From the NCBI GenBank assembly GCA_021604725.1, contig BQJN01000042.1, forward strand, positions 1 to 37,039: a stretch of 37,039 nucleotides of DNA, given 5' to 3'. This stretch comes from Lysobacteraceae bacterium (lineage in GTDB: Bacteria > Pseudomonadota > Gammaproteobacteria > Xanthomonadales > BQJN01). The notes beneath the pieces were generated by a model. The model had not been told where the DNA came from. It made no database searches and saw nothing but the letters and a program-made list of their open reading frames with translations. How positions within the stretch are numbered: position 1 is the first letter of the stretch; each line of letters opens with the position of its first letter. Position numbers and translations under genes: made by a program. Positions 19,526 to 31,921 of this stretch are shown here, in pieces.

Positions 19526-20854
19526 TCACTCCGCAACGACCTCCAAACTGTGGGTCGGGCTTTTGTTGCCCAACATGTCTTCGGCAAAAAACTCGATGCG
19601 ACCGGGCTTCGGTTCAAGTTCCTCACCATCCCACACTTGCCATTCTGTGCCCTGACGGAACCAAATGACGACGCCTCCTGCCGCATCATCCATGCTGTGA
19701 AAGATTACCCTGGATTGCTTGCCAACACGAAGCTCACCTCCTTCTCCGGAAATGGCACCGCCGACGACTTCAGCGACAACGCCAGGCCCAATGTCATCAC
19801 GCCAGTCCCGGGTTATCGAGAACTTCTTGGCTGAGCTCGAGTACCCAAGCAAGCCTGACGCACTATAGGCGGCAACTCGCCAATAGAACTGCCCTAGTCC
19901 TAGCGAAGGTGCATGCCACCTGGTGTCGTTTACGGTACCCGATTGTGCCAACGGTTCGGCGCACTCTGGGTCGGCGCAGACCTCTGCGTTGTAACTTGCG
20001 GCGTTGTCCAGTGCTTCCCAGGTCAACATAGGATTGTTGTAATTGAGCGCACTATCATCGAGCGGGGACATCGTTACTGGTGCCTTTAATAGGCGTTCGG
20101 GCTTTCCAGGTTGCCCACCATCGGGGACCGCGACCCCAAGGCCCTTGCTTAGGTTGACGCTGGCACCGCCTGCTTCCACTTCGCCACTACCTTCATACAT
20201 CGACAAGCGCGCGCTGCGGTCGTCCGTGGTCGCTGCGTGCAAACTGACTCCGGATGCCTGTGCTCGAGGAACCGTCACGGCCGACCCGGTCACCAGCGTC
20301 AATTCAGTTTGCGGTCGGCGCACCGAAATAGGATTCCACTTCAAATCAGCGCCACCACTCACCACCTCGATGGTACCCCGATCGACGCCACGCAGTGTCG
20401 TCTCACGCCCACGCAGAAAAACCTGCGAGTACTCGTCAAGGTAGAGCGTCGACTCGGCGTTGAACTCCAGATTGGCAGAGGAGTCAGCGAGCGTCCTGAC
20501 CCCTTCACTGGCGCCAATCTCGTCCCCATCAACCGCATCAACCCAGCCTTCAGTCTTGGCTGATTTGTCTACCTCAGCAACGATATTTTTGACCAGCGCG
20601 CTCTGTGCTTCGATAGTGCGTGTTTTGATGACCTTCAAGCGCTGACCAATGCGCAACATATGCGGGTTTTTTATCTGTGGGTTTAGCTTCCAGTTTTCGC
20701 GCCACAAGAAGTCGGTACCGAGATACTTTCTGGTAATTCGCTCCAGGGTATCACCTGGTGCGACCACGTGTTCAACGTACTCGTCAACGACTTCTTGAGC
20801 CGACAAAGTCACGGTAACGACAAGCAGAAGCAGACTGACCATGATTCGTTTCAT
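19526..20854 (-). CDS. Secreted LysM-FecR domain protein
   Basis: The signal peptide is MKRIMVSLLLLVVTVTLSA. A LysM domain (HVVAPGDTLERITRKYLG ... MLRIGQRLKVI, about residues 28-80) should bind peptidoglycan. It is followed by a FecR-like beta domain (about 115-245: LYLDEYSQVFLRG, GTIEVVSGGADL, LSMYEGSGEVEAGG) and a fibronectin/Ig-like domain (LTWEALDNAASYNAEVC ... FYWRVAAYS). FecR domains in classical systems pass signals to ECF sigma factors; here the protein is soluble and probably wall-anchored. The ATG at 20854 overlaps the upstream stop (ATGA) and has GGGTGA nearby. Third gene of an overlapping operon with the kinase. Confidence 0.85.
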   Translation of the reverse strand: MKRIMVSLLLLVVTVTLSAQEVVDEYVEHVVAPGDTLERITRKYLGTDFLWRENWKLNPQIKNPHMLRIGQRLKVIKTRTIEAQSALVKNIVAEVDKSAKTEGWVDAVDGDEIGASEGVRTLADSSANLEFNAESTLYLDEYSQVFLRGRETTLRGVDRGTIEVVSGGADLKWNPISVRRPQTELTLVTGSAVTVPRAQASGVSLHAATTDDRSARLSMYEGSGEVEAGGASVNLSKGLGVAVPDGGQPGKPERLLKAPVTMSPLDDSALNYNNPMLTWEALDNAASYNAEVCADPECAEPLAQSGTVNDTRWHAPSLGLGQFYWRVAAYSASGLLGYSSSAKKFSITRDWRDDIGPGVVAEVVGGAISGEGGELRVGKQSRVIFHSMDDAAGGVVIWFRQGTEWQVWDGEELEPKPGRIEFFAEDMLGNKSPTHSLEVVAE

Positions 20855-21882
20855 TTTGCAATCACCCGCCATTGCTGCTGCGACTCGTTGCCAAGTTTGT
20901 CAACTAGAAACGCACGTATGACATATGCGCCACGGTCTGCGAACAGCAGAGATTCCGGTAATTCGCGCAGTGATCGACGGTTGTATCGATAGCGTGCCTG
21001 TTCCAGGCCTGCCCCTTCGTCGGTCACGGAAAATGTCACTGAGTCACCGCGCTTTAGATGCACCGTTTCGCGATGTGAGTAGGCCGCACCATCAAATTCG
21101 ATTGTGGCCACGGGCCCCTGTGTATCGTAACGCCACTGTTGTTGCTCGCTGGATGTATTGCCGAGAGCGTCGACAGCGGAAATAGCGATGCCTTGTTCGT
21201 TCCACCGTACATCTTGAGTCTTTGCGAGGTTTAGTACGTCGGGTTCAACGGCGACCACGTCGACGTGCTCGTCGTCGATCGCAATGCGAAGCTGGGCTGG
21301 AAAATGACTAAACGCAGGGTTGTTGCCCAGCCGATTCAGTAGTTCGATGTTGATGTTTGGCCCCTCGTCATCAATCAGCAAACTCACCGTTTTTCTAGCA
21401 CTATTGCCAAGCCGATCGGTAGCAACGACGTCAATCCGACTAAGGTCAGCAGGCAGTGGGGAGGGCAATTGAGACACGGTAACGTCGCGATCCATGACAT
21501 AACGAACCTGTGCCACACCCGAGCCATCATTCACCTCGGTCATTGCTTTGGTTTGAGGACCAACTATGGTTTTGTCGGTCAGCCGCTGCGCAGCACCAGA
21601 CCAGGTCAGCTGGATCGCTGGCCCATCAAAGTCCAACACCAGCGGTGCGGTTGACGCTGAGCTAGCGTGGCCGCGCTCCAGATACCAGTGCAGCTGTCCG
21701 TCGGTGCGCACGACGCGCCAACGGCCATCGCCACTGTCTGTCTGCGCTGCATTGACCACCCCGCCATCGACAACAACAGCCTCTGCTGCCGGAGGGTCGC
21801 CCAAATGCAGGCTGGCTCTATCATTGGCTTCAGCTTCAGCTAAAGCTGGTAGTAGGAACCATGGAATTAGCAATAACCTCAT
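20851..21882 (-). CDS. Secreted Ig/OmpL47-like beta-sandwich protein
   Basis: The signal peptide is MRLLLIPWFLLPALAEAEA from ATG 21882; ATG 21906 is also possible and would extend the N terminus by eight residues. The rest is three or more beta-sandwich modules of the kind found in OmpL47/bacterial Ig proteins: VSLLIDDEGPNINIELL, WRYDTQGPVATIEFDG, SVTDEGAGLEQARYRYN. No catalytic motif is visible. The 5' end lies inside the 3' end of the kinase gene (47 bases) and the 3' end overlaps the LysM-FecR gene, so the three products are made together. A structural or ligand-binding partner of the kinase sensor domain is a fair guess. Confidence 0.72.
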   Translation of the reverse strand: MRLLLIPWFLLPALAEAEANDRASLHLGDPPAAEAVVVDGGVVNAAQTDSGDGRWRVVRTDGQLHWYLERGHASSASTAPLVLDFDGPAIQLTWSGAAQRLTDKTIVGPQTKAMTEVNDGSGVAQVRYVMDRDVTVSQLPSPLPADLSRIDVVATDRLGNSARKTVSLLIDDEGPNINIELLNRLGNNPAFSHFPAQLRIAIDDEHVDVVAVEPDVLNLAKTQDVRWNEQGIAISAVDALGNTSSEQQQWRYDTQGPVATIEFDGAAYSHRETVHLKRGDSVTFSVTDEGAGLEQARYRYNRRSLRELPESLLFADRGAYVIRAFLVDKLGNESQQQWRVIAK

Positions 21883-23782
21883 CACGTGCACCGGAATCCT
21901 TCTCATCAAGAATTGAATTGATATCTAGCCAGTCATCTTCCCACACCACCGGCTTCGACCAAGCGCCAAGCAATGCCTTCAGCGCATCGTCAGCGGCAGG
22001 TCGGCGTTCCGGGTCCTTGTCCAGCAAGGAGCCGATAACTCTGGCCAACACCGGATCGATGTGGCGCAAGTACGGTTCATCGAACGACACATCAACACTG
22101 GTCGTTCGGGTCATGGTCTGGTGCATATTTTTGCCACGGAATGGCGACACACCAGTCAGGCATTCAACAATGACCACGCCAACTGAGAATACATCGCTCT
22201 TCGGGCTGAACTGACCACCGATAATCGATTCCGGAGCGACGTAGCCGGCCGTACCTGACAATGTGGCGCGCAATTGTGTGCCGAGAGTCACCGGCGCTGC
22301 GGTGCCAAAGTCGGCAATCTTTATGTCGCCATTCTTGTCGAGCAACACATTTGCCGGCTTGATATCCCGATGCACCATGCCTTTGTCATGGGCGGCTGCC
22401 AATCCACGCAACACCGCGACTGCGATAGGTAGAACGATCCGTATCGGAAGCCGTCGTCGACGTGCCAACACGCCACCGAGCGACTCCCCATTGACCAGCT
22501 CCATTGCAACGAACACCGCCGCGTCAGACTCAATGATGTCAAACACGCCAACAAGGTTGCGATGGGCAAGACTGGCCGCCACCACCGCTTCCTCTCGCAA
22601 TCGTCGCAATGCCTGCGCTCGCTCAGCACCGTCCAATGTTTCAAAGTTCAATGTCTTCAACGCAACATATCGATGCAGCTTTGGATCCCAACCCAGATAG
22701 ACAGAACCCATGCCCCCGAAGCCTATTCGCCTAAGCACTTGATAGCGGTCGACAAAGACCCGGCTAAGGGCCTCGCGCTCAGTCACATGCCGCTTCATGG
22801 CGGCAAAGGCATCATTGAGCGCTGAAATCTCGTTTCCGCTCGACACATTGGGAGAAACGCCCGCCAGTTTGCGCTGCTCCACAATCAGGTGTTTGATCGG
22901 CTTTACGATTTTCAGGTAGGCCAGCGCCAGAATCAGCAGGACAATCACACTTACCGCGAAAAAGGCGCGCCATGCTGTGCCCCGCAGCTCCCGTGACAGT
23001 GACTCTGCTTGTGGCAGTGGTTGCCGCGAAATTACCGTCAACGATGTGCCCTGGATGGCGGAGAATGCTGAAACGGCCATACCAATATCAGGCCATTCAA
23101 GCTGCCGGGCTCCGGATCTGATCAGGTCCTGGGTCGCAAGTTCAGCCAACACCGGTGGAAGGGCATCAACGCCGGGGGGGCCGAGCAATACTTTGCCCTG
23201 ATCTGTATCGGCGAGAAATATTTGCGCCGCGTTTCCGAGCTCCTCGGGTGCCAGCAATGAGGCCAACTCTCGATCCTCAGCGTAGGCCGTGAGCCAAACG
23301 TTGGGCCGAGCCGTTTCCCTGGCCACAACCATAATGACTCGACCGTCGCGGCGGCCCAAAGATAAACCCAGTTGCAATGGCGATGGCAGTTGCGTCGTCA
23401 TCTCCGGGTCAAACTCTGCCACTTGAGCCCGAAAAACAAGCTCTTCGCTGTCATCTTGAACTAGCGTCAGGTTTATAGCCAGCACGGCAGGCTCGGCCTG
23501 TACTGCACTGGTGATCAGTTCCTGAGCCGCGGTGGAGCCCGGGTCCAGATACAGTTGATTGAAGTTGCCCAGGGTCTCCAACAAGCTTCCGAGGTTTGAC
23601 AATCGCGCCTCCAGCCGCTCGGAAGCTGTTTTCGCTGCGAGCAAGTGAGAGCGCTGGACCTGGTCAACCAGGCGCGTTCGACTCTGGTCGATCTGATACC
23701 AGGTCAGAGCGAATGGAAGTGAACAAACCAAGCCCAGGGCAAGTAGCAGCCAGGCCATGATCGGAGAAAAAAAATGCCGCAT
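21836..23782 (-). CDS. Membrane-bound Ser/Thr protein kinase with external sensor and HAMP-like linker
   Basis: Layout: TM1 (about 6-28), a periplasmic Cache-like domain of about 240 residues, TM2 (about 269-290, FFAVSVIVLLILALAYL), a HAMP-like linker, then a complete Hanks-type kinase domain from about residue 348. Visible kinase motifs are GFGGMGSVYLG (P-loop), VALKTL (catalytic Lys), HRDIKPAN (H471-D473), DFGTAAP and GYVAPES, so it should be active. The order sensor-HAMP-kinase is the layout of histidine kinases with the output swapped for a Hanks kinase. It is the first gene of a three-gene overlapping operon with secreted partners. Confidence 0.92.
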   Translation of the reverse strand: MRHFFSPIMAWLLLALGLVCSLPFALTWYQIDQSRTRLVDQVQRSHLLAAKTASERLEARLSNLGSLLETLGNFNQLYLDPGSTAAQELITSAVQAEPAVLAINLTLVQDDSEELVFRAQVAEFDPEMTTQLPSPLQLGLSLGRRDGRVIMVVARETARPNVWLTAYAEDRELASLLAPEELGNAAQIFLADTDQGKVLLGPPGVDALPPVLAELATQDLIRSGARQLEWPDIGMAVSAFSAIQGTSLTVISRQPLPQAESLSRELRGTAWRAFFAVSVIVLLILALAYLKIVKPIKHLIVEQRKLAGVSPNVSSGNEISALNDAFAAMKRHVTEREALSRVFVDRYQVLRRIGFGGMGSVYLGWDPKLHRYVALKTLNFETLDGAERAQALRRLREEAVVAASLAHRNLVGVFDIIESDAAVFVAMELVNGESLGGVLARRRRLPIRIVLPIAVAVLRGLAAAHDKGMVHRDIKPANVLLDKNGDIKIADFGTAAPVTLGTQLRATLSGTAGYVAPESIIGGQFSPKSDVFSVGVVIVECLTGVSPFRGKNMHQTMTRTTSVDVSFDEPYLRHIDPVLARVIGSLLDKDPERRPAADDALKALLGAWSKPVVWEDDWLDINSILDEKDSGARDEVIANSMVPTTSFS

Positions 23783-23952: not shown

Positions 23953-24492
23953 CTATTGAGTAAGCACCTGCTTGTATTCGGGCATCAACACCGAATCGAT
24001 GAAGTACACATCGCCATTGGTCGTGCTCACGCCCTGACAATCGACCGCTGCGTTATTGACACGTGCCGCGCCATTGTTGCGGTGGAAGAAAACATTCTGA
24101 CCGTTCAGGGTGTCACGTCGCACGGTAGTCAAAAACTTGCGCGGGTTTAGACGACCTGGGCTGACGTGATACACAAGCACATCGGTTAGCGATGGAACGT
24201 CGGCCAGCAAATCACCAAGAATGTCGGCCGGAATGGCACCGAAAGCATCATTCGTCGGTGCGTAGACAGTGACGTCGTCGATGGTATCGAGTGTATCGAC
24301 AAGATCAGCCGCGCTCAGCGCTGTGACCAATGTACTTAGCTCCGGCGTAGCTAGGGCCGCATCAACGATGGTGCCGTCGAACTGGATGAGATCTGTCGAT
24401 ACGCAGTCGGCGAATGATTGAGCGTTAGCGTTGATGGCGAACGATGAGGCGAGGGCAAAACAACCGGCAGCAATTGCGTTTCGTAGCGTCAT
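23953..24492 (-). CDS. Secreted fasciclin (FAS1) domain protein, first copy
   Basis: The signal peptide is MTLRNAIAAGCFALASSFAI, ending near NANAQS. One FAS1 domain follows: TIVDAALATPELSTLVTAL, VTVYAPTNDAFGAIP (H1 motif), DVLVYHVSPGRLN (YH motif) and VYFIDSVLMP (H2). Two cysteines (in ADCVSTD and VDCQGVS) are unusual for a FAS1 domain and may form a disulfide. AGGAG lies seven bases before ATG 24492. FAS1 domains mediate adhesion in matrix and surface proteins. It sits between an ECF sigma gene and a kinase operon on the same strand, so it may be their target. Confidence 0.9.
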   Translation of the reverse strand: MTLRNAIAAGCFALASSFAINANAQSFADCVSTDLIQFDGTIVDAALATPELSTLVTALSAADLVDTLDTIDDVTVYAPTNDAFGAIPADILGDLLADVPSLTDVLVYHVSPGRLNPRKFLTTVRRDTLNGQNVFFHRNNGAARVNNAAVDCQGVSTTNGDVYFIDSVLMPEYKQVLTQ

Positions 24493-24616: not shown

Positions 24617-25204
24617 TCAGTCTGCCGCCAACGCCAGCCCCAACCAGGCCTTGGCTTTAGCCCAATCGCGACGCACGGTTCGCGTATCGACCGCCAGCAA
24701 CTGAGCTATTTCGGACTCGGTGAGTCCACCAAAAAACCGGTATTCAACCACCTTTCGCGCTCGTGGCTGAAGTCGTCCTAGCCGTTCCAGCCCATCATTG
24801 ATGATCAGCAGTCGTTCGGCTTGCTCGTCAGCCTGAAGCTGCTCAGGGTCAAGCGAAACCTGCCGCGCCTGTCCGCCCCGCTTTTGGCGTAGGCGCCGCT
24901 TGGCTTCATCAAGCAACACATGCCGCATTGCGGTCGCCGCAACAGCGTAAAAGTGATGTCGGTGGTTGTACGCGTGAGATGCTTTTCCTGCGAACTTAAG
25001 GTAGGCCTCATGTAATAGCCCGGTGGTGTCCAAAGTCGCCGAATCAGTGTTTCGGTATCGTTGACCACGTGCGATGCGGCGCAACTCGTTATAAACCAGC
25101 GGAAACAGTTCATCCAACGCGGCTTGTTCACCAGCCGCCAGCTTGTCCAACAAGACAGTGACTTCGCCAACGCTTGGCGCACCCGTGTTTGATTCCCTAG
25201 TCAT
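24617..25204 (-). CDS. ECF sigma factor, TIGR02999 (Sigma70_ECF) type
   Basis: Sigma region 2 (LDELFPLVYNELRRIARGQR; DTTGLLHEAYLKF; FYAVAATAMRHVLLDEAKRR) spans about residues 25-110. Region 4 (PRARKVVEYRFFGGLTESEIAQLLAVDTRTVRRDW) is at about 148-183. This subgroup is often found beside Hanks-type kinases rather than anti-sigma factors, and that is the case here: a Ser/Thr kinase-TPR gene is divergent, 80 bases away. Control by phosphorylation is a plausible model from the family, not shown by the sequence. No anti-sigma gene is evident. Confidence 0.93.
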   Translation of the reverse strand: MTRESNTGAPSVGEVTVLLDKLAAGEQAALDELFPLVYNELRRIARGQRYRNTDSATLDTTGLLHEAYLKFAGKASHAYNHRHHFYAVAATAMRHVLLDEAKRRLRQKRGGQARQVSLDPEQLQADEQAERLLIINDGLERLGRLQPRARKVVEYRFFGGLTESEIAQLLAVDTRTVRRDWAKAKAWLGLALAAD

Positions 25205-25284: not shown

Positions 25285-27789
25285 ATGACTAAACCGAAAG
25301 ACCAAGCTAAACGCGACCTTGAGCACTGGCGTGCCATCGAAGAGGAGTTTGACGCAACAAGCGAATTGGAAGACCGAACCGAGCCCGACCAGGGCAAGCA
25401 TGTGCTGGATCGACCCATGGCCGAACAATTCGTGGATCTCGTAGACTCGGCGATGCGCTCACATGGACAATCAGGGCTGAGCGTTGGCGACCACGTGGGC
25501 GCGTATCGCATTTCCGCACGGGTCGGGGAAGGCGGTATGGGTACGGTGTTCCAGGCCACTCGCGATGATGGCAATTTCGATCAAGTGGTCGCGTTGAAGG
25601 TGCTACACCGTGGTCCCGCTGATGAGCAGGCACACCATCGCTTCGTGCAGGAGCGCCAAATTCTGGCTGGGCTCCGGCACCCCAATATTGCGAGGCTGTT
25701 GGACGGAGGCGTAGTCCAAAGTAGCCCCTACCTTGTGATGGAGTACATTGAAGGCGAGGCGATCACCGAATACTGCACTCAAAACCACCTCGGGCCCGAG
25801 CAAAGAATTCAATTATTTCTGCAGGTCGCCGCTGCGATCCGCTATGCGCACAAACAGGGAATAGTTCATCGTGACATCAAGCCCTCAAATCTCCTAATCG
25901 AACAAGGTGACGGCGAGCGGGCACGAGCCGTCGTTCTAGACTTTGGTATCGCATTGATCGAAGACGGCTCGAAACTGGTAACCTCTACCGGGCAGGTCAT
26001 GGGCACTCCAGGCTACATGTCGCCGGAGCAGTCAGTAGGTGAAAGGACACAGGTCGATCGACGCACTGACATCTTTTCGCTGGGTGTCATTCTGTATCAA
26101 CTTCTCACTGATCGCCGGCCGTTTGAGGGGTCAGACATCGGTTCGGTATTGGTCGCTGTATTGCATGAGGAACCTATACCTATACAGCGCCACTGGCCCA
26201 GTATTCCTGCCGACCTGGCGACCATTGTGCACACTTGCCTAGAACGCGACCCCGGCGGACGCTACCCGTCTGTGCGTGCATTGGAAAATGATCTCAAGTG
26301 TTATCTCGATGGCAGTCCAATAACGGCCCGACCGATCGGTTTGACTGCGCGATGGCTGCGCCGAGCACGACAACGTCCGAAAACCGCCGCATTGGTGGTC
26401 TGCTTGATCGCTGTATTGCTGACATCGGTAGCCGCGTTTGCCCTAGTGGGCATCAAACATGCACGCGCCCTCGAGTCTGAACGGAATCTAGCAGTAGCCG
26501 CCAGACAGGAAGCGGAAGGCTTGATGGACTTCATGCTGGCCGACCTTCATCAGGGGTTGGATAAAGTTGGTCGATTGGATCTACTCCTGGACGTCGCGCA
26601 ACGTACCTTGGTCTACTATGCAGGCCATCCAGAGATTGTTTCTATTGAGGACTTGAAGCGCCGATCCCTGGCTCTGGTTAATGCTGGTCAGATACTGGAA
26701 GAGCAAGGCCGAATTGAACTGGCACTGAACGCTTATCAACAAGATCAGGTCGCGCTGACCGATTGGCTTTCACGAACCCCTGCAGCTGATCTCAGCGCTG
26801 AACTGATCCGCAACCACAACGCTATGGCTGGCGCGTACATCGCCGGCGGCGACATCGAGGAGGCCTTGCGAGAGACCAAAGTTGGTCTGGCCAAGTCGAA
26901 TCAACGCATTAGGGCTGCCGATACGACCAACCGGGACGCCAAAATCCACTTCGAATCGCTCACCTTGCGCGGATGGGTATTGCGAGAGGCTGGCAATATC
27001 GACGAAGCGATGAGCGTGCTGAGCGAAGCGGAATCACTAGCCCGTGTTCGCTCAGTTGTAGAGCCGAAATGGCGTCATGATCACGCTGTCGCGTTGTCCT
27101 ATATCGGCTTGATTCACTATCAACAGGGCGACCTCCGAGCGGCACTGGAATATTTCCTTCCAGCACGGGGCATCTGTGAGGCTTTGGTCGCTGAAGACCC
27201 CTCCAACACCGTATGGCGTGAGGAGTTGCAGCTGACGTTGGGGCGCATTGGTTCAACGTGGTTGGACCTGGGTGACAACTCAAAAGCCGAATCTGCATTG
27301 AACGAGGCCGGCCAACAATCGGATATCCTGGTGACGATGGAACCGGCCAATGCCAACTGGCTGCGAGAGCTAGCTGTGGTCCGTGCGACTTTGGCGGCCG
27401 TCTATCTGGATACCGGCAAGCTTGATGAGGCCTTAGCCAATATCCAGGGCAGTCTGCAAATCACTCAAACGCTAATTCAACGCTTTCCTGACAACCATTC
27501 AATCGGCAACGATCTTGCCTGGGACCTGTTGGACTACGGTCGCGCACTAGACCGGCTTGGTCGTACCGAGGAGGCAAAACAGGCATGGCGCGATGCCTTG
27601 CAAGCGATAAAAAAGGTACGTGAGCACGAACCCAGTGCTCACTACTACATGGACACTGAGGTTCAGATCCTGCTCGAATCAGGCAATATTGATCAGGCCC
27701 GCCCGTTGGTCAACACCCTTGTTGATTCAGGCTGGAAAGCCCCGGATTTCATTGAGCTGGTCACCAAACACGGCTTGATTGACAACTAG
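25285..27789 (+). CDS. Ser/Thr protein kinase with TM helix and C-terminal TPRs
   Basis: The Hanks kinase domain covers about residues 73-340: VGEGGMGTVFQA, VVALKVL, HRDIKPSN, DFGIALIE and GYMSPEQS are all intact, so it should be active. A transmembrane helix follows at about 368-392 (TAALVVCLIAVLLTSVAAFALVGI), and the outer part is a long TPR region (ALVNAGQILEEQGRIELALNAY; GLIHYQQGDLRAALEYF; YLDTGKLDEALANI). This is the common partner architecture for TIGR02999 sigma factors. The two genes diverge from a shared 80-base promoter region. The TPRs would sit in the periplasm and could sense protein partners. Confidence 0.93.
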   Translation: MTKPKDQAKRDLEHWRAIEEEFDATSELEDRTEPDQGKHVLDRPMAEQFVDLVDSAMRSHGQSGLSVGDHVGAYRISARVGEGGMGTVFQATRDDGNFDQVVALKVLHRGPADEQAHHRFVQERQILAGLRHPNIARLLDGGVVQSSPYLVMEYIEGEAITEYCTQNHLGPEQRIQLFLQVAAAIRYAHKQGIVHRDIKPSNLLIEQGDGERARAVVLDFGIALIEDGSKLVTSTGQVMGTPGYMSPEQSVGERTQVDRRTDIFSLGVILYQLLTDRRPFEGSDIGSVLVAVLHEEPIPIQRHWPSIPADLATIVHTCLERDPGGRYPSVRALENDLKCYLDGSPITARPIGLTARWLRRARQRPKTAALVVCLIAVLLTSVAAFALVGIKHARALESERNLAVAARQEAEGLMDFMLADLHQGLDKVGRLDLLLDVAQRTLVYYAGHPEIVSIEDLKRRSLALVNAGQILEEQGRIELALNAYQQDQVALTDWLSRTPAADLSAELIRNHNAMAGAYIAGGDIEEALRETKVGLAKSNQRIRAADTTNRDAKIHFESLTLRGWVLREAGNIDEAMSVLSEAESLARVRSVVEPKWRHDHAVALSYIGLIHYQQGDLRAALEYFLPARGICEALVAEDPSNTVWREELQLTLGRIGSTWLDLGDNSKAESALNEAGQQSDILVTMEPANANWLRELAVVRATLAAVYLDTGKLDEALANIQGSLQITQTLIQRFPDNHSIGNDLAWDLLDYGRALDRLGRTEEAKQAWRDALQAIKKVREHEPSAHYYMDTEVQILLESGNIDQARPLVNTLVDSGWKAPDFIELVTKHGLIDN

Positions 27790-31438: not shown

Positions 31439-31921
31439 TTAGGGCAGCAAAACTGCGTCGATGACGTGGATTACACCGTTATCGGCCATGACGTCCGCGG
31501 CCACGACATTGGCTTTGCCAATCATTACACCGTTGGCGGTTGACACATCCAGGCTTCCACCTTGCAAAGTGGTGACCGAATCCAGGGTAACGACCGTCTC
31601 AGCGGTAGTCTTGCCGGCCGCGACGTGAAAGGTAAGGATATTTGCCAGCGCTTGCGGGTCGGCCAGCAGCGCTTCGACAGTGCCTTCAGGCAACGCTGCA
31701 AAAGCCGCATCAGTCGGAGCGAACACAGTGTACGGACCGTCGCCTTTCAACGTGTCGGTCAGGTCTGCTGCGTCAAGCGCGGCCAGCAAAGTGGTGAAGT
31801 TGCCATTCGCACTGGCGACGTCAACGATGGTGTTGGATTTCTTGCCGTAGTTGCCAGCCGGCGCTACTGCAACAATTCCTACCAGGGCGATCGCGCCGAG
31901 AAGTGACTTAACTAGTTTCAT
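31439..31921 (-). CDS. Secreted fasciclin (FAS1) domain protein, second copy
   Basis: The signal peptide is MKLVKSLLGAIALVGIVAVA. A single, near-canonical FAS1 domain follows: NTIVDVASANGNFTTLLAAL, YTVFAPTDAAFAALPEGTVE, ILTFHVAAGK and GVIHVIDAVLLP. At 160 residues it is the typical bacterial one-domain form, without the cysteines of the first copy. The start at 31921 has GAGGAAG seven bases upstream, and an intrinsic terminator follows the stop, so it is a monocistronic unit. It probably acts at the cell surface or in the matrix. Confidence 0.94.
   Translation of the reverse strand: MKLVKSLLGAIALVGIVAVAPAGNYGKKSNTIVDVASANGNFTTLLAALDAADLTDTLKGDGPYTVFAPTDAAFAALPEGTVEALLADPQALANILTFHVAAGKTTAETVVTLDSVTTLQGGSLDVSTANGVMIGKANVVAADVMADNGVIHVIDAVLLP

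Follow-up and report, generated by a model that had tools for sequence, protein, structure and literature searches.

Do a transmembrane Ser/Thr kinase and two predicted exported proteins, encoded by three overlapping genes of a Lysobacteraceae bacterium, form one signalling unit, and could such a unit report on the state of the cell wall? The genes lie in the window, which is the whole stretch of 37,039 nucleotides that was analyzed (contig BQJN01000042.1, positions 1 to 37,039), and an earlier note on this DNA had described them as an operon encoding a putative wall-sensing complex. PASTA receptor kinases (PknB, PrkC and StkP) are transmembrane Hanks kinases thought to read cell-wall state, and little is known of how Gram-negative bacteria devoid of such kinases could couple wall state to Ser/Thr phosphorylation. 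With its wall-binding partner encoded apart from the kinase, an obligate three-gene unit would offer a compact and testable system.

Results

Organization of the three genes

The three open reading frames of the operon described in the earlier note were all found on the minus strand of the window, in the transcription order kinase, Ig-like, LysM-FecR. The first gene (21836..23782, minus strand) encodes a transmembrane Hanks-type Ser/Thr kinase of 648 aa, the second (20851..~21891, minus strand) an Ig-like/OmpL47 protein of ~346 aa predicted to be exported, and the third (19526..20854 or 20872, minus strand) a LysM-FecR protein of 442 aa from the ATG at 20854 or 448 aa from the ATG at 20872. 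In the window, the kinase and Ig-like genes share 47-74 nt, according to which start codon is taken. The likeliest start of the Ig-like gene is a GTG at 21891, with AGAAGG 6 nt upstream and an overlap of 56 nt with the kinase gene, and an ATG at 21882 is a possible alternative. For the LysM-FecR gene, the most likely start is the ATG at 20854, located in a 4-nt ATGA overlap with the Ig-like stop codon; starting from the upstream ATG at 20872, the overlap would be 22 nt. Nine homologous loci besides the window have this 4-nt overlap, and the rest have a gap or an overlap of at most ~12 nt. The overlaps are real and conserved across homologous loci, and they support translational coupling. They say nothing about fixed ratios between the proteins, so that the earlier claim of such ratios was an over-reading. 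Promoter and terminator scans at the locus returned patterns no better than those of shuffled sequence.

Catalytic domain and sensor of the kinase

The kinase combines a first transmembrane segment (TM1) within a long helix (residues 7-72), a predicted periplasmic double-Cache region (~30-255), a second transmembrane segment (TM2) followed by a HAMP-like linker (~256-340) and the kinase domain (347-602). The Pfam Pkinase family matched residues 347-602 with an E-value of 7.6e-54, the motifs GFGGMGSV, VALK, HRDIKPAN, DFG and GTAGY-APE were all intact, and nearly all kinase motifs were present in 13 homologues. By fold and motifs, the protein fits a Hanks-type Ser/Thr kinase with predicted activity, in agreement with the identity first assigned to it. 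We rejected a PASTA/PknB identity: the best score of the kinase domain was against the PknB/Stk1 model, with 233 bits for a cut-off of 450, and no PASTA domain was matched. In contrast to PASTA kinases, the sensor of the trio kinase is an N-terminal dCache region between two transmembrane segments, and the putative wall-binding part is carried by a separate protein. Regarding the kinase complement, the genome G000 contained 27 Hanks-kinase matches for one PP2C_2 phosphatase match, which makes a large kinome and a very small complement of PP2C_2-family phosphatases.

The Pfam dCache_1 family was matched by 12 of the 16 sensors of the family (best E-value 3.2e-9), the window copy being below the gathering score, so that the Cache-like input domain anticipated for this kinase proved right at the family level. 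An AlphaFold2 model of residues 1-340, built from a two-row alignment (mean pLDDT 70.5), presented a long N-terminal helix and then two beta-rich modules ahead of TM2. When this model was compared to the PDB with Foldseek, the matches were mostly dCache ligand-binding domains of chemoreceptors (E-values of ~1e-8 to 1e-6), with modest TM-scores for a model that includes the membrane helices. Searching the PDB by sequence with the profile of the sensor returned no convincing match. By profile comparison, the whole sensor, TM2 and the linker aligned over 311 columns (E-value 3.4e-10) to dCache-HAMP histidine kinases encoded next to FecR proteins. Taking the profiles and the model together, the sensor of the kinase is assigned as a double Cache (dCache) domain. 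Its conserved residues include QxQxxH (41-46), SxQ (252-254) and E260. The HAMP-like linker of the earlier note stands as a resemblance, with this alignment onto the HAMP of FecR-linked histidine kinases as its sole basis, and a HAMP domain in the Pfam sense was not matched. The fusion of dCache_1 to Pkinase is known but rare, with 25 of 15,569 dCache_1 proteins in a 2016 census (PMC4822843). These proteins resemble the trio kinase in having a dCache joined to a Pkinase domain, and what the census gives for them is domain counts only.

Among other hits of the sensor profile, its end was matched in many genomes of family f12 by proteins of ~290-340 aa, similar to a membrane protein of 317 aa that carries a CxxCH motif, has a HAMP-like end and, at the locus L131 (784-2424, minus strand), lies beside a TIR-like protein.

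The two predicted exported partners

The Ig-like protein matched the NCBIfam OmpL47-domain model NF047446 with 51.8 bits (cut-off 40), as did seven of seven members of its family, which bears out the description of the protein as Ig/OmpL47-like. The full-length equivalog model of Leptospira OmpL47 gave a score of 31, below its cut-off of 250. The putative signal peptide ends near ALAEA and no lipobox cysteine was seen in the sequence.

The LysM-FecR protein of the window matched Pfam LysM with 28 bits (cut-off 20.9) and Pfam FecR with 18.7 bits, under the cut-off of 24. All seven aligned family members matched both LysM and FecR (best FecR E-value 1.1e-6), and the name given to the protein in the earlier note can be kept for the family as a whole. 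Its layout consists of a signal peptide, LysM, FecR, an Ig/FN3-like region with an invariant cysteine pair (EVCADPEC) and an OmpL47-homologous C-terminal domain. In the Ig-like protein, its homologue is the C-terminal OmpL47 domain (profile match with an E-value of 1.6e-8 over 92 columns), indicating that the two proteins have a building block in common. Export of both partners is predicted from signal peptides read by eye and with hydropathy, and, judging from its LysM domain, the LysM-FecR protein is probably bound to peptidoglycan by that domain. An AlphaFold2 model of the LysM-FecR protein, also from a two-row alignment, had a pLDDT of 41.7 and was unusable for judging an interface. We also considered a FecIRA-type anti-sigma system. 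The periplasmic FecR domain is a shared feature, but in the trio it is LysM that accompanies FecR, on an exported protein that lacks an anti-sigma part. This candidate was discarded, since the protein begins with a signal peptide and then LysM, with no transmembrane anti-sigma FecR and no FecI or FecA gene adjacent.

Conservation of the trio

We surveyed 399 genomes of the same order by three separate profile searches, with matches at E-values of at most 1e-140 for the trio-type LysM-FecR protein, 1e-41 for the Ig-like protein and 1e-66 for the kinase sensor. The three were found in the identical 15 of 399 genomes, distributed over five families, and the genes were adjacent and in the same order in 13 of these 15 genomes. 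In G025 and G112, the matches to the sensor and to the LysM-FecR protein fell on different contigs, the genes being located at contig ends, which is consistent with assembly breaks. A sixteenth copy was present in Pseudomarimonas arenosa (Lysobacterales), the only match of a contig scan with a single LysM-FecR protein; from this copy, the order surveyed is taken to be Lysobacterales/Xanthomonadales. Overall, the order kinase, Ig-like, LysM-FecR and the adjacency of the genes were observed in 14 of the 14 loci in which all three were read together, Pseudomarimonas arenosa included, for kinases from five families that are ~32-38% identical to the window kinase. A TGA inside the copy of G033 was set aside as an interruption: it disappears when the match starts further downstream and is probably upstream of the real start codon.

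The earlier note had suggested a neighbourhood survey as a check on the trio, and had held that exported proteins occurring as a rule without the kinase would speak against it. As described above, the trio is kept across five families, well beyond close relatives, and neither the Ig-like nor the trio-type LysM-FecR protein was ever found without the kinase among the 399 genomes of the order. The trio was not found outside the order in the 312 genomes from the class and the 219 from the phylum that we searched. Within 4 kb of the locus, no flanking gene was common to distant families, sharing being limited to close relatives; since the flanks differ between distant families, what is conserved as a unit is these three genes and nothing else. 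A secretion, polymerisation or adhesin gene was not found as a conserved neighbour either. The trees of the three proteins recovered the same family clades, with distance-matrix correlations of 0.92-0.96, an agreement that could partly come from the common species history.

Distant relatives of the LysM-FecR protein

In the LysM-FecR searches, a sharp score gap below the trio type was followed by a second class of proteins with E-values of ~1e-20 to 1e-32. For more distant relatives, 45 of the 48 neighbourhoods read had the LysM-FecR or FecR gene next to a transmembrane sensor, with the sensor domains checked by Pfam for a subset. The arrangements included CHASE2-GGDEF, CHASE2-PAS-GGDEF-EAL, CHASE2-histidine kinase, in some cases with a receiver, a split form in which separate genes encode a histidine kinase, a LysM-FecR protein and CHASE2 alone, and a dCache-HAMP-histidine kinase with a REC-GGDEF regulator after it. 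The split form, with CHASE2 on a stand-alone membrane protein, was observed at L206, L210, L211, L212, L215, L216, L218, L222 and L223, all in family f12, with a hybrid-type kinase in L211. At L189, L197, L198, L200 and L201, genes for a FecR protein, a dCache-HAMP histidine kinase and a REC-GGDEF protein are in a row, as the nearest two-component counterpart of the trio; the FecR protein of this set, in the one that was scanned, matched FecR and not LysM.

The earlier reading needs a correction on this point: in the wide sense, LysM-FecR proteins are not specific to a kinase of this type, the rule being CHASE2 or dCache sensors with other outputs. Because these distant relatives adjoin sensors with varied outputs, the most fitting reading of the trio is that of a Hanks-kinase branch within a modular system made of a LysM-FecR protein and a membrane sensor, to which an Ig-like protein is added. 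It differs from the wider systems by the position of the LysM-FecR gene, last in the trio and before the sensor gene elsewhere, by the additional Ig-like gene and by Ser/Thr phosphorylation as the predicted output.

Such a module has been described in part only in the literature found, for biofilm control in Burkholderia. The BiofilmReg operon encodes a response regulator, a LysM-FecR protein (COG4254), a CHASE2-PAS histidine kinase and a DUF4136 protein (PMC5192318). Like the trio, it is a tight operon in which an exported LysM-FecR protein is encoded with a transmembrane sensor kinase, and distant homologues of the trio LysM-FecR protein occupy similar operons in our survey. However, BiofilmReg has a CHASE2 input and a histidine-kinase output whereas the trio has a dCache input and a Ser/Thr-kinase output, the gene order is opposite, BiofilmReg has no Ig/OmpL47 gene and the trio has no conserved response regulator or DUF4136 gene. 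CHASE2 was not found in the genome of the window.

Discussion

The identical distribution in 15 genomes, the adjacency and kept overlaps of the genes, the unshared flanks, the agreeing trees, the dCache sensor and the relatives encoded beside sensors lead us to consider that the three genes probably encode one transmembrane signalling unit, with the LysM-FecR protein as a wall-linked co-receptor and the Ig-like protein as a second partner. A wall-linked receptor kinase is a reasonable model, for which contact, ligand and substrates are our inferences. The kinase would cross the inner membrane twice and expose its dCache sensor to the periplasm, where both exported proteins would act, the LysM-FecR protein being held to peptidoglycan through LysM and either anchoring the sensor there or signalling the state of the peptidoglycan. 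The LysM-FecR protein and its Ig-like partner may contact the dCache domain and shift its conformation or dimer state with the condition of the envelope. A change in the dCache domain would then reach the cytoplasmic kinase by way of TM2 and the HAMP-like linker, and the kinase could autophosphorylate on its activation loop and subsequently phosphorylate its targets.

The dCache domain could alternatively sense a small diffusible ligand alone, the exported proteins being co-expressed envelope or surface effectors, downstream or in the same pathway, and not co-receptors. The Foldseek matches of the sensor to chemoreceptor ligand-binding domains agree with this explanation, dCache domains can sense small ligands without partner proteins, and OmpL47 and Big domains occur in surface and adhesion proteins too. 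SMc02177 of Sinorhizobium, a FecR-domain protein whose gene lies near cyaD1, an adenylate cyclase gene, is needed for output and dispensable for perception, and is a pathway output (PMC5498481); the LysM-FecR protein of the trio might by analogy have such a role, the likeness being that of the FecR domain. However, LysM-FecR proteins track sensors that have either CHASE2 or dCache as input and that differ in their outputs, which is easier to understand if they are part of the input, and the strict 1:1:1 co-occurrence and the overlaps fit an input role better while staying compatible with effectors. We regard an effector role as rather unlikely, although it deserves attention.

We give still less credit to a structural assembly of the LysM-FecR and Ig-like proteins at the wall or surface, regulated by the kinase via cytoplasmic targets and with sensing as a secondary function. 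LysM and tandem Ig/OmpL47 domains suit anchoring and the C-terminal domains of the two proteins are homologous, but the neighbourhoods hold no conserved secretion, polymerisation or adhesin gene and proteins related to LysM-FecR are encoded beside purely signalling proteins, so that such an assembly appears improbable. Finally, overlapping genes are common in bacteria and the promoter and terminator patterns did not exceed those of shuffled sequence, which would fit three unrelated genes that are co-transcribed by chance. This explanation is refuted by the survey, given the same 15 genomes, the adjacency in five families with different flanks and the congruent trees, and we attribute a negligible probability to it.

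Beyond the wall-linked signalling unit, the CHASE2 and dCache relatives point to a broader module in which the LysM-FecR input is constant and the output enzyme varies. We tentatively suggest, with somewhat more doubt than confidence, that LysM-FecR proteins are general wall-tethered co-receptors for interchangeable CHASE2 or dCache sensors, feeding the envelope state into c-di-GMP, His-Asp or Ser/Thr phosphorylation signalling. In the trio, as the Ser/Thr branch, a portion of the Ig/OmpL47 region would have been transferred to a second, separate protein. The open-licence literature that we searched gave no account of a Hanks kinase partnered by LysM-FecR or OmpL47 proteins. The ingredients are each known; their combination and strict conservation appear to be new.

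Another receptor Hanks kinase, from what we take to be the same order, is PknS of Xanthomonas citri, a protein of 833 aa with an N-terminal kinase and C-terminal periplasmic TPRs, which targets the ECF sigma factor EcfK (PMC13147305). Both PknS and, by prediction, the trio kinase are controlled by a periplasmic region, but their layouts are opposite and the trio has no conserved sigma-factor neighbour. The window itself contains a pair with the PknS/EcfK layout (PMC13147305), made of an ECF sigma factor (24617-25204, minus strand; TIGR02999, 194.7 bits) and a divergent gene (25285-27789, plus strand) for an 834-aa kinase-TM-TPR protein, a pair whose adjacency to the trio is not conserved elsewhere. 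Just upstream of the trio and on the same strand, a gene at 23953-24492 (minus strand) encodes a small exported fasciclin-type protein (Pfam Fasciclin, E-value 5.4e-26). The upstream fasciclin and ECF sigma genes were rejected as members of the unit in spite of their common strand, no flanking gene being common to the other families. A second small fasciclin-type protein, which appears to be exported as judged from its sequence, is encoded near the first at 31439-31921 (minus strand).
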